DNA from: Prevotella sp.
Lineage (GTDB): Bacteria; Bacteroidota; Bacteroidia; Bacteroidales; Bacteroidaceae
Assembly (NCBI GenBank): GCA_017847725.1
Contig: JAGAXW010000030.1
Location: 1 to 39,282 of the forward strand
DNA: 39,282 bases
Direction: 5' to 3'
Positions 9,501 to 25,108 of this stretch are shown piece after piece. Within the stretch, counting starts at the first letter, position 1; every line of letters begins with the position of its first letter. The notes beneath the pieces were generated by a model. That model was not told the DNA's origin. It saw only the letters and a program-made list of their open reading frames with translations, and did not search any database. The position numbers were made by a program, and so were the translations under genes.

Positions 9501-9766
9501 TCTCTGACGGTTTTTTCATCATACCCCGTCGCCTCTGCGACATGTTGCAGGTAGTGGTCTGAATCAGGCAGCCGTTTCCATATACCGTAGAGCTGGCTCA
9601 GGATGCGCATCTTCATCTCCTCCGTCGCCTTGTTGGTGAAGGTTACGGCCAGAATGTTCCTGTAGCTCGTGGGATTCATGACGAGCAGTTTGATATATTC
9701 CGTGGCCAGTGTAAAGGTCTTTCCGGAACCTGCGCTGGCCTTGTATACAGTAAGGGCTTTTACCAT
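6548..9766 (-). CDS. addA: AddA-like UvrD/RecB helicase-nuclease
   Basis: A 1072-residue superfamily 1 helicase with a C-terminal nuclease, the motor subunit of an AddAB/RecBCD-like end-processing enzyme. Visible motifs are Walker A KASAGSGKT (residues 9-17), motif II IDEFQDTST, VGDVKQSIYRWRSGDW, ILSIHKSKGLEFNHVIVP and LLYVALTRA. The C-terminus carries RRPDRV and VVDFKFGQP with a following QVREYM, a RecB-type PD-(D/E)XK site. It starts inside the end of the DUF5686-like gene (7-nt overlap) and runs into addB (8-nt overlap), so the three form one tight operon. Confidence 0.9.
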   Translation of the reverse strand: MVKALTVYKASAGSGKTFTLATEYIKLLVMNPTSYRNILAVTFTNKATEEMKMRILSQLYGIWKRLPDSDHYLQHVAEATGYDEKTVRERAETALHLLLHNYSYFRVETIDAFFQSVLRNIARELDLTANLRISLNDTQVEEQAVDRLIDSLTHTDLMLQWIMSYIMEKISDDRSWNIISQVKSFGKNIFNDHYKENKKELNEKMADPDFFDNYTQQLKQIRDAAAERMKEIAETFFDTLAGEGLSGKDLLYAEKGVYGFFVKLRNSVMDESIEGKRVCECKEVAAKWCKKDHPRAAFIQALADETLIPLLRYATEERPRQYRLFKSASLTLDHLNQLRLLGNIDQQVRNINDETNRFLLSDTQHLLQALISDSDSPFIFEKIGTQLEHVMIDEFQDTSTIQWRNFKVLLRECMSHQHTENLIVGDVKQSIYRWRSGDWRLLNAIDQEFPYPDETLEIKPLETNYRSLRNIIEFNNAFFSEAVRLTYDELYTESPQRAEQLRSAYADVVQQVPAHRQPEGQVSICMLPSEDYTEQTLNEISTIVEQLMEQGATPDSIAILVRNNKYIPIIANYFSVNKPDVRIVSDEAFRLDASPAVCLLVQALHLLTHPDDTLSKATVVKLYHRSILGESTSEEELLIKGLPTDGLMPEAYTEHREELLRLPLFELVERLYQIFNLHRLGEQSAYLCAFYDSLNKFTQDNSTDIDAFVKEWDDTLCSKTIQSNDTEGIRILSIHKSKGLEFNHVIVPFCNWQLVHGDTLWCEPDEAPFNALPVIPIRYSGKQMKGTIYEQAYLDELLQNTVDNLNLLYVALTRAVANLYVIGQRGGDKSRRSAIIENVLPALCDKLANSTLEGVEQDNAPLRFHFGTLSVKQHNQQQSQNIFMQPAEPLQVDINVFDAKTEFRQSNKSRDFIEGEDEHSDPSYIKIGSVLHELFSTIRTEEDIDGALLRLQQEGVLYDNEITKEKLAQMLRKRLESKQAKDWFSNRWNLFNECSILQLMPNGEVRERRPDRVMTDGHETHVVDFKFGQPKEEYLEQVREYMRLLRQMNMPHVRGWLWYVYSNRIEEVTSDE

Positions 9767-23381: not shown

Positions 23382-24005
23382 ATGACAGACCCGCAGATAC
23401 AACAGCAAGTCAAGGACATCAAGCAGTCGTTCCGCCTGATGATGGACGGCGTCGTGGCCAAGTCGATGCGCGACAAGGGCGTGGCCTATCCGCTCAACTG
23501 GGGGGCCACGCTGCCCCGCCTGCGCGAGATGGCAGACGAACTGGGCAAGAACTACCATCTGGCCATCGCCCTGTGGAAGGAGAACGTGCGCGAGTGTAAG
23601 ATACTGGCCACGATGGTGATGCCTGCCGAGGAGATGCTGCCCGAGGTGGCCGACATCTGGATCGAGCAGATACCCACTCAGGAGATAGCCGAGCAACTGG
23701 CGTTCAACCTGTGGCAGCACCTGCCCTACGCCGCGGAGAAGGCCTTCCAGTGGCTGGCGTCCGACCAGGAATACTACCAGCTCTGCGGATACCACGTGCT
23801 GACGCGCCTCTTCATGAACGGACAGGAGCCCAACGAGCGTGGCATCAACGAGTATATCGACCAGGCGCTTTCTGCCCTTCAGGGGCCGTATCCTTCTGTC
23901 CGCAAGGCTGCCTTCCTGAGCGTACAGCGCTTTGCCGCGCTGGGGCTCGTCTATGAGCGCATGGCCAAAAGTGCGCTGAAGTCAGTAGGTCTGGAACTCC
24001 CTTAG
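23382..24005 (+). CDS. AlkD-like DNA alkylation repair protein
   Basis: A 207-residue all-helical protein resembling the AlkD HEAT-repeat family of DNA glycosylases (ECKILATMVMPAEEMLPE, NLWQHLPYAAEKAFQWLAS, PSVRKAAFLSVQRFA). Family members excise alkylated bases. Conserved Trp and basic residues are present, but I cannot confirm the AlkD catalytic Asp by eye, so a non-catalytic HEAT-repeat protein remains possible. It is last in the run AraC-type regulator, dipeptidyl-peptidase III, AlkD, and directly precedes the palindromic element. Confidence 0.7.
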   Translation: MTDPQIQQQVKDIKQSFRLMMDGVVAKSMRDKGVAYPLNWGATLPRLREMADELGKNYHLAIALWKENVRECKILATMVMPAEEMLPEVADIWIEQIPTQEIAEQLAFNLWQHLPYAAEKAFQWLASDQEYYQLCGYHVLTRLFMNGQEPNERGINEYIDQALSALQGPYPSVRKAAFLSVQRFAALGLVYERMAKSALKSVGLELP

Positions 24006-24023
24006 CCCTGTGAAAATACGCCC

Positions 24024-24471
24024 GGAAATTTCACTTTGACATTTTTCGCAAAAAAAATACCTAAAGTCTACACTAAACAACTTAACGATCTGTTTTATAA
24101 TCCGTTAGACCGTGTAGGCTTTCCCCAAACCCTACACTAACCCTACACAAGCCTACACAAGCCTACACGCGACGGGAATAAGAATTTCCACAGCGGGGAA
24201 AAGGGATTTCCACAACGTGGAAAACATATTTCCGCAGCGTGGAAAAAGGATTTCCCTGTCGTGGAAAACATATTTCCAAGGCGTGGAAATATTTATTTAG
24301 CTCCTGTTTCAGCCAGTATAGGCTTGTGTAGGCTTAGTGTAGGCTTGTGTAGGCTTAGTGTAGGCTTTGGGAAAAGCATACACGGGTTAAATAATAGTGT
24401 AATAGACAGTTAAGTCATTTAGTGTAGGCTTTAGGTATTTTTTTTGCGAAAAATGTCAAAGTGAATTTTCG
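24024..24471. repeat. 450-bp imperfect palindromic element with internal repeat arrays
   Basis: A non-coding element between the AlkD-like gene and fur. Its outer arms 24032-24077 and 24418-24463 are inverted repeats identical at 45 of 46 positions, including an 8-nt A/T run. The inverted symmetry continues inward in exact register around an axis near 24247.5, through arms of about 150 bp. The inner arms carry tandem decamers (AAGCCTACAC on the left, GTGTAGGCTT on the right). The centre holds five 22-bp hairpin units. No target-site duplication was seen. I do not recognise the element. A transcript would fold into one long hairpin. Confidence 0.9.
24184..24293. repeat. Five tandem 22-bp units, each a small palindrome
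   Basis: Units start at 24184, 24206, 24228, 24250 and 24272, with a period of exactly 22 bp and no partial unit. Each has TTTCC on the left, a variable middle and GGAAA on the right. Unit 2 is a perfect TTTCCAC-AAC-GTGGAAA hairpin; the others vary in the inner stem. The period equals about two helical turns, so the palindromes face the same side of the DNA. Confidence 0.9.
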
Positions 24472-24556
24472 TCTGCAAGATGATGGAAGCGGATACGGCA
24501 GATCGGACCCCATTTTGTGGCCAAAAGTCATAATTTAGAACTTTTTCAAATAAAAA

Positions 24557-24589
24557 TTGCTTTATTGTGGAGAAAAAATAGTAATTTTG
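24557..24589 (+). promoter_or_regulatory. Probable fur promoter
   Basis: A -7 box TAATTTTG (24582-24589) lies 30 nt before the fur ATG. The nearest -33 candidate TTG (24557-24559) is 22 nt away, slightly long for the Bacteroides spacing. It starts about 85 nt after the palindromic element. Confidence 0.5.
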
Positions 24590-24619
24590 TGCGGTTTTAA
24601 ACCAATTTAACCACATAAC

Positions 24620-25108
24620 ATGAGAGAAAACATCAAGGTAACGGTCAAGAACATCTTGACTAACTATCTGGAACTGAACAAGCACAGGAAGACGCAAGAG
24701 CGCTTCACCATCCTCGACGCGGTGTACAGCATGGACGGTCACTTCACGCTGGAGGAACTGGGGGACAAACTGACGAACGACTACAATTTTCCTGTGAGCC
24801 GTGCCACGCTGTACAACACGCTGAAGCTCCTCATAGAGCTGCGACTCGTGGTGAGGCACCGCTTCCAGACGACGACCAAGTATGAGGCATGCTACGACAA
24901 CAACAGTCACAGCCACCAGATATGCACGATGTGCGGGAAAGTGACCGAGGTGAAGTCGGCGCAACTGACAGAGGCCATCAACAACCTGCATACGAAGCGC
25001 TTCCGCAAGGACGGATTCACGCTCTACGTGTATGGCATCTGCAGCACCTGCCAGGCAAAGCTAACGCGACAGATGGCGAAAGGAAACAAGAAGAAAACTC
25101 AAAAATAA
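24620..25108 (+). CDS. Fur-family metal or peroxide regulator
   Basis: A 162-residue Fur-family repressor. The N-terminal winged helix (ERFTILDAVYSMDGHFTLEE, FPVSRATLYNTLKLLIEL) binds DNA. The C-terminal dimerisation domain carries NNSHSHQICTMCGKVTEV and GICSTCQAK, two CxxC pairs that bind structural zinc. Whether it senses iron, zinc or peroxide cannot be decided from sequence. It lies 10 nt before purA and is probably co-transcribed with it. Confidence 0.9.
   Translation: MRENIKVTVKNILTNYLELNKHRKTQERFTILDAVYSMDGHFTLEELGDKLTNDYNFPVSRATLYNTLKLLIELRLVVRHRFQTTTKYEACYDNNSHSHQICTMCGKVTEVKSAQLTEAINNLHTKRFRKDGFTLYVYGICSTCQAKLTRQMAKGNKKKTQK

Follow-up and report, generated by a model that had tools for sequence, protein, structure and literature searches.

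Iteron palindromes in Prevotella: an intergenic copy, its relatives and a candidate partner ATPase

SaPI rep/ori and P4 alpha/ori-crr are origins built on iterons, and the foldback transposons of Drosophila, which are eukaryotic, have long inverted ends made of short tandem repeats. At a further iteron origin, the PLE RepA/ori of a phage satellite, short repeats are described as bound by a specific initiator (PMC7145576), and AEP-VirE fusions are described as predicted replication proteins of mobile elements (PMC5862659). Dispersed chromosomal repeats have been described as well. REPINs are inverted, hairpin-forming repeats found near a specific cognate enzyme gene (PMC3116915). BrickBuilt, a MITE of Porphyromonas gingivalis, is intergenic, has 19 copies, inverted ends and tandem 23-nt units, and its report describes ends that resemble IS5-family elements and array flanks that are non-repetitive (PMC4596501). 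PINSR of Prevotella intermedia is a 188-bp repeat that its report states to be without terminal inverted repeats (PMC4755523).

We compared these systems with a 450-bp palindrome from a 39,282-nucleotide stretch of Prevotella sp. DNA, the whole of which we call the window. By description only, its long inverted ends of short tandem repeats liken it to the foldback transposons of Drosophila. Like BrickBuilt, it is intergenic, occurs in the same phylum and has inverted ends that flank a tandem array, with units of 22 bp rather than 23. Unlike BrickBuilt, it lacks that element's terminal repeat GAGACCTTTGCA, which is absent from positions 24006–24517 and has a single two-mismatch match in the window (at 9710), below chance expectation. 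A partner gene of the ATPase kind, which we describe below, is not a feature of BrickBuilt in the accessible part of its report (PMC4596501). The element shares with REPINs and RAYT the arrangement of dispersed, inverted, hairpin-forming repeats near a specific cognate enzyme gene (PMC3116915). However, the partner here is a degenerate-primase/VapE ATPase, whereas RAYT is a Y1 tyrosine transposase, and the palindromes are 320–620 bp long (448 bp in the window, with arrays) instead of two inverted 20–40-bp REPs. No RAYT was present among the scanned adjacent proteins, which were DNA_alkylation and FUR beside the window copy, and BT4734-like_N/VapE, DUF6078 and HU-HIG beside the gene-linked copies. 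At 29 loci of the genus, arrays of a gene-specific iteron lie beside an initiator-type gene, whose product may bind them as an initiator binds its repeats at an iteron origin; no such gene stands beside the window copy or was found in its assembly. Unlike iteron origins, there are chromosomal copies away from the gene, and the primase motif is degenerate. No integrase was recognised by eye in gene maps of the linked loci. PINSR, too, is an amplified intergenic repeat of Prevotella, and is set apart here by its published description only (PMC4755523). A first-pass annotation of the window, made from the letters alone, knew of no described element with this architecture, and our searches agree: the element had no blastn match in plasmid or phage collections at E 1e-5, and we recognised no paper describing the palindrome family in the open PMC literature, including that on REPINs (subscription papers and preprints fall outside this scope).

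On one side of the palindrome lies a gene whose product has a DNA_alkylation domain, and on the other a Fur-family gene, itself followed by adenylosuccinate synthetase (domain scan). Its best symmetry centre is 24247.5. Around this one fixed centre, the 46-bp outer arms (24032–24077 and 24418–24463) pair at 45 of 46 positions, the second arm block (24078–24123) pairs with its mirror at 30 of 46 and the third (24124–24168) at 35 of 45. The annotation was therefore correct both in placing a palindrome with 46-bp arms here and in describing an in-register symmetry whose identity dips and then rises. The innermost block (24169–24247) pairs at 24 of 79 positions, and the centre carries its own 22-bp symmetry instead. 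The gapped inverted-repeat score of the element is 205, compared with a mean of 14.4 and a maximum of 32 across 300 dinucleotide shuffles, which rules out a chance palindrome; the highest-scoring non-overlapping 450-bp interval elsewhere in the window scores 28. The predicted single-strand DNA fold has a free energy of -148.5 kcal/mol (DNA parameters), while 100 shuffles gave a mean of -45.0 with a standard deviation of 4.74 (z = -21.8). The annotation's statement that there is no ORF holds for frames of 80 aa or more lying wholly inside the palindrome, but one minus-strand ORF (24431–24991) overlaps the right arm. The element has no Rfam match at the gathering score; the window's matches are four tRNAs only. 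A cluster of four tRNAs (Glu, Ser, Gly, Thr) lies at 337–869 on the minus strand. The features of the element and its edges are listed in Table 1.

Table 1. Coordinates of the palindrome, its motifs and the edges of the inserted DNA (window positions)
Feature	Position	Strand	Evidence or spacing
Left copy of 11-bp direct repeat TGGCCAAAAGT, close to where the upstream DNA-alkylation-repair-like gene ends	23962..23972	+	
Left edge of insert outside the palindrome, after the upstream gene's stop codon	24006..24024	.	Without counterpart in aligned empty sites
Left terminal arm, A/T-rich end and outer iteron	24025..24077	+	Arm pairing 45/46
Outer iteron GTCTACAC (consensus GCCTACAC)	24066..24073	+	Fixed distance to next motifs in 7/7 full copies
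Inverted iteron GTGTAGGC	24112..24119	-	44 bp from outer iteron
Left iteron array: CCCTACAC, CCCTACAC, GCCTACAC, GCCTACAC at 24130, 24141, 24151, 24161	24130..24168	+	
Centre: five TTTCC-N7-GGAAA units at 24185, 24207, 24229, 24251, 24273	24185..24289	.	22-bp steps
Right iteron array: GTATAGGC, then four GTGTAGGC, at 24316, 24326, 24337, 24347, 24358	24316..24365	-	
Mirror of inverted iteron, GCATACAC	24376..24383	+	
Right terminal arm	24418..24470	-	Arm pairing
Right outer iteron GTGTAGGC	24422..24429	-	64 bp from last array iteron in 7/7 full copies
Right edge of insert outside the palindrome	24471..24517	.	Without counterpart in aligned empty sites
Right copy of 11-bp direct repeat TGGCCAAAAGT; begins a decayed second copy of the upstream gene's 3' end	24518..24528	+	

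The window palindrome is inserted DNA between genes that neighbour each other in related genomes. We searched 200 genomes of the genus for its flanking genes (147 matched) and examined 19 fetched loci besides its own. In 11 of the 19, from 11 species, both flanks are in place without the palindrome, separated by gaps of 95–189 bp; the gap is 95–100 bp in eight of the 11, and the same points are 640–695 bp apart in the window. Because the flanking genes lie close together without the element at these loci, the element is an insertion. The remaining eight loci, with right-flank alignment scores of at most 60, were left uncounted; the gap is 99 bp in one of them and 115 bp in another. Comparison with the empty sites places the inserted DNA at about 24006 to about 24517, which is longer than the extent of 24024–24471 given by the annotation. 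Its claim that there is no target duplication is true inside those coordinates, but an 11-bp direct repeat lies outside them (Table 1). Both flanks of the element align to the same upstream-gene end in the empty sites, overlapping by 19–22 bp in seven of eight aligned species and by 2 bp in the eighth, and following the upstream gene's reading frame to its stop by eye suggests a duplicated stretch of about 45 bp. The annotation missed this flanking duplication, as it missed the partner ATPase gene. Among the 17 elements tested there is no constant target duplication: four reach p <= 0.05, with differing lengths and offsets. The copy on contig C29 yielded no readable empty site; its two flanks were not found side by side in the relatives listed.

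A blastn search with the element found nine places in its own assembly (2.39 Mb, 80.6% complete), and so it is not single-copy. Seven are full copies, on contigs C38, C21, C54, C29, C24, C36 and C33. The other two are remnants, of which that on C17 (L271 5818–6005) lacks the centre and has its arms joined near the inner hairpin, and that on C6 is a single end of the element; all other matches were 15–26 bp long with E >= 0.9. Tandem pairs of the 22-bp unit (at most two mismatches) occur 28 times per strand, all within the seven full copies, while the reversed-sequence control gave none in the assembly. The copies are 66 to 87% identical over aligned positions. Array iteron number varies among the full copies, but the spacings of 44 and 20 bp on the left and 64 bp on the right are constant in all seven, as are the five 22-bp units, one of which is degenerate in C21, C36 and C33. 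Conservation reaches 98.4% in iteron columns and 98.6% in the 22-bp half-sites, compared with 72.9% in spacers and 71.4% in the inner 7 bp, a contrast that arises partly by construction, since the motif columns were selected as motifs. The conservation of motifs and spacing across copies looks like that of a binding site and not of a decaying passenger. Together with the same-design palindromes at the ATPase gene, it indirectly favours one of the annotation's candidate roles, that of a protein-binding site.

The two arms of a copy are alike in patches. Two copies are nearly perfect-armed, matching at 72/72 and 70/72 positions, and the arm identity of their 31-bp spacer is 1.00 and 0.97, against 0.59 between different copies. 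In the other five of the seven copies, spacer arm identity is 0.48–0.65, close to the between-copy level, and the arms of the window copy are near-perfect outside and diverged inside. This patchy likeness suggests arm-to-arm copying through a hairpin. Over all seven copies, arm likeness falls short of significance (permutation p = 0.055, rising to 0.37 when C33 is left out and to 0.13 when C54 is). We rejected arm covariation as proof of structure, since it reaches p = 0.055 over seven copies and rests on two of them.

We now turn to the gene beside which palindromes of this blueprint recur. PF08800 (BT4734-like_N) was found in 12 of 13 genomes chosen for motif arrays, the exception being the window's genome. 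In a first set of 30 loci, the TGTAGGC frame lies upstream of the PF08800 gene clearly in six and partly in two. When the motif is ignored and a palindrome is defined by an inverted-repeat score of at least 34 and a span of at least 300 bp within the 800 bp upstream, a long palindrome lies directly upstream in 12 of the 28 loci that could be tested (upstream DNA was too short at the other two). These thresholds were fixed after the first set, so the second set is the test: it comprises the top 30 loci for relatives of the G363 protein among 150 genus genomes, and 20 of its 27 testable loci have a long palindrome directly upstream. Three of the 20 are shared with the first set, leaving 17 of 24 new loci. 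The definition failed in 16/28 loci of the first set and 7/27 of the second, three of the latter seven having spans of 146–433 bp and scores of 25–30. Outside the genus, none of 18 BT4734-like loci (from 11 of 99 genomes) had a long upstream palindrome. Control regions upstream of other genes, taken from the same stretches and the window, gave 0/124 by score and span and 8/124 by score alone; 11 further control regions were set aside because a TGTAGG element lies inside them.

Palindromes of the same blueprint accordingly stand directly upstream of these ATPase genes at 29 distinct loci of the genus, as read from sequence. Their spans are 322–618 bp, and their inner ends lie 6–154 bp before the start codon. 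Two of the 29 loci (L383 and L384) encode proteins with a rounded identity of 1.00. At locus L106, found by motif alone, a PF08800 gene adjoins the palindrome. Iterons differ from gene to gene (AACCACCA, AACTACAC, CCGTCAC, CCTCTACT, CTCTTCAC, CCTTCAC and others), and the count of shared iteron motifs follows protein identity (rho = 0.20; 0/1000 Mantel permutations). In a protein tree of 37 rows (midpoint root, used only to draw it), one clade of 13 holds 11 of the 12 long-palindrome genes of the first set, and GCCTACAC occurs in two subclades of that clade. A divergent gene beyond the palindrome was recognised in 15 of the 29 loci, encoding DUF6078 in 11 and HU-HIG in four.

In the same genomes, and on the same footing, there are copies of the same motif that have no such ATPase gene beside them. 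Motif and centre are common to linked and unlinked copies within G373 and within G363 (by eye). In G018, the ACCACCA palindrome occurs both beside the gene and, as a full copy, on a contig that lacks PF08800 matches, and 36 contigs of G018 hold matches to the repeats of its centre. For the CCGTCAC type of G242 there is a copy beside the gene, and a contig where PF08800 is absent has a partial match. The window's own assembly has no PF08800 match, and hence no BT4734-like gene was found in it; at 80.6% completeness, the absence of this gene is not proven. No initiator-type gene lies beside the window copy, where the proteins are DNA_alkylation and FUR. On contig C28 of the assembly (L303 635–2841), a VapE-only ORF of 400 aa stands beside an HU-HIG gene; about three 22-bp-spaced palindromes around GCGACRGCCGTCGC lie between the two.

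Across the 20 fetched loci that we read, element-bearing loci have a common frame, which runs from an A/T-rich end through one or two iterons and about 45 bp of spacer to an array, followed by the mirror of these. The centres vary by species, yet each is built of short palindromes, which are forms of AAATTCTCTAGAGAATTT in G373, G315, G018 and G242, of GTTACAAAGGCCTTTGTAAC in G125, and of AAAACT-N3-AGTTTT in G363. Copies with the same iteron in one genome have the same centre in G373, G363, G125, G139 and G064 (two or three copies each, by eye). The G018 centre repeats (L313 1480–1790 and other loci) once lie beside inverted TGTAACCGA arrays, which look like a further iteron family. Several linked and unlinked palindromes occur in or next to apparent polysaccharide-synthesis clusters (L273, L275, L277, L280, L265 and L266, by eye), and a Stealth protein is encoded at the one in L266 (domain scan).

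Searches by sequence and by motif gave a wider distribution. Searched against 59 other genomes, the whole element matched in two of them, with short pieces only, one probably by chance. The pattern GCCTACAC-N0-4-GCCTACAC is found in 28 of 398 genus genomes, its own included, some of which may be chance, and its reversed control in four. Scans for triple GCCTACAC gave 92 stretches in genome contigs and 65 in viral contigs; many of these arrays lie in long open frames, chiefly with a 12-bp period, and motif matches alone were therefore not counted as members. TGTAGGC arrays lie directly behind primase-helicase genes at L192 5676 and L170 890, two viral contigs that encode the same protein (BT4734-like_N and AAA_25), and at L123 7703 in Aliiroseovarius, where a Prim-Pol stands beside the array. 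We discarded TGTAGGC arrays as a general mark of primase genes, because the other array-adjacent proteins scanned are unrelated. One IMG/VR contig (L231 744–1280), perhaps of bacterial origin, has a palindrome that closely resembles those of Prevotella sp. tc2-28.

The linked gene encodes a protein with BT4734-like_N, VapE-like and DUF5906 domains in all six proteins scanned. At primase motif I (hhhDhD), the first aspartate is absent in 29 of 29 long-palindrome proteins, which typically read LEVNNL, and the second is absent in 27. D-x-D is kept in nine of ten aligned out-of-genus proteins (ten of the 12 longer than 550 aa were included), in three other genus proteins and in viral L192; the degenerate motif also occurs in genus relatives without a long palindrome. 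Walker A is present in 28 of the 29. With the primase motif degenerate and Walker A kept, we predict these proteins to be ATPases or helicases whose primase domain is disarmed and which probably no longer prime DNA synthesis. A PDB sequence search returned one chain, similar to Dichelobacter nodosus VapE (7pds). At least one match to the G363 protein at E 1e-60 or better is present in 82 of 150 sampled genus genomes, some of them covering the VapE part only.

Our preferred reading, to which we give a probability of about 0.6, takes the element for an orphan iteron palindrome: its motifs would be binding sites for a BT4734-like/VapE ATPase of this genus, and the palindrome would also have spread as MITE-like copies. 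Motifs at near-helical steps, invariant distances, a gene-adjacent prototype and orphan copies make a site for the linked ATPase the simplest account. The ATPase, perhaps joined by DUF6078 or HU-HIG at loci that have one of them adjacent, would bind its own iteron, load at the palindrome in the manner of an initiator at its origin, and open the palindrome or extrude it as a hairpin. Occasional copying via the hairpin would spread the palindrome, non-autonomously, to new intergenic sites, and strand switching inside it would keep the arms alike. Spreading by the ATPase, and any benefit to the host, are steps that we infer.

The dispersal of the copies can also be explained by an ordinary MITE, an IS deletion derivative moved by a classical transposase, with the iterons and 22-bp units as passengers, as in BrickBuilt. 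The copies are dispersed within intergenic regions or at their edges, relatives have an empty site, the window copy has 46-bp inverted ends, and a minisatellite-bearing MITE has been published from the same phylum. But the target duplication is not constant in the 17 elements, the outer ends seem by eye less conserved than the inner motifs in the copy alignment, and the same blueprint recurs with other sequences in front of one enzyme family; no transposase-bearing autonomous element was recognised by eye in gene maps of the copies and linked loci. We find this explanation improbable, and of the annotation's MITE-like candidate we retain the dispersal and the empty sites, not a constant duplication. 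A regulatory operator that controls the ATPase gene and its divergent partner, with dispersed copies acting as regulatory sites or decoys, is unlikely, if a little less so. The nearness of the palindrome's inner end to the ATPase start codon, the divergent DUF6078 or HU-HIG gene in about half of the loci and motif steps of 10–11 and 22 bp are all consistent with it, whereas the own-genome copies sit beside unrelated genes, some at gene ends, as between the DNA-alkylation-repair-like and Fur-family genes, and a nested 320–620-bp palindrome is in our judgement bigger than an operator needs.

The differences in iteron between genes could also arise in a conflict or anti-phage module, in which iterons diversify under attack and chromosomal copies are sensors or decoys. 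A PADLOC scan of five proteins gave matches to CRISPR-associated PrimPol (3e-31) and weaker ones to RTasVirE-PriCT2 of DRT systems (about 1e-6), and iterons are described at the origin of a phage satellite (PMC7145576). Those PADLOC matches, however, cover only the shared primase domain or the N-terminal third, and we regard such a module as distinctly improbable. Least probable by far is a long structured RNA transcribed from the palindrome, another of the annotation's candidates: the very stable fold, predicted with DNA parameters, is what speaks for it, while Rfam has no match and in five of seven copies the likeness of the two arms in the spacer does not exceed that between different copies. 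The annotation's interpretation is, on balance, partly supported.

On the preferred reading of an orphan ATPase-binding palindrome, ATPase and palindrome look like a replication module turned chromosomal site-binding system, by analogy with the logic of REPINs and RAYT, and the evidence points to an undescribed partnership of a DNA-binding enzyme and its target sites. More tentatively, and with the odds somewhat against it, they may form a new enzyme-palindrome class, in which a replication initiator with a disarmed primase, retained as a helicase for a private, fast-changing iteron, maintains and spreads nested 300–600-bp palindromes across the chromosome by template switching, with no transposase or integrase.

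These findings place a frequent but uncharacterised gene of the Prevotella group in a context that hints at function, and make of a nameless repeat a protein-DNA pair open to testing, with natural specificity variants by the dozen. Should the palindrome's spread depend on the helicase, the palindrome would be a bacterial mobile element able to do without both transposase and integrase. Should the spread be independent of the helicase, the palindromes may instead form a private system of chromosomal addresses. In both cases, the reading from residue to motif is approachable from existing genomes.
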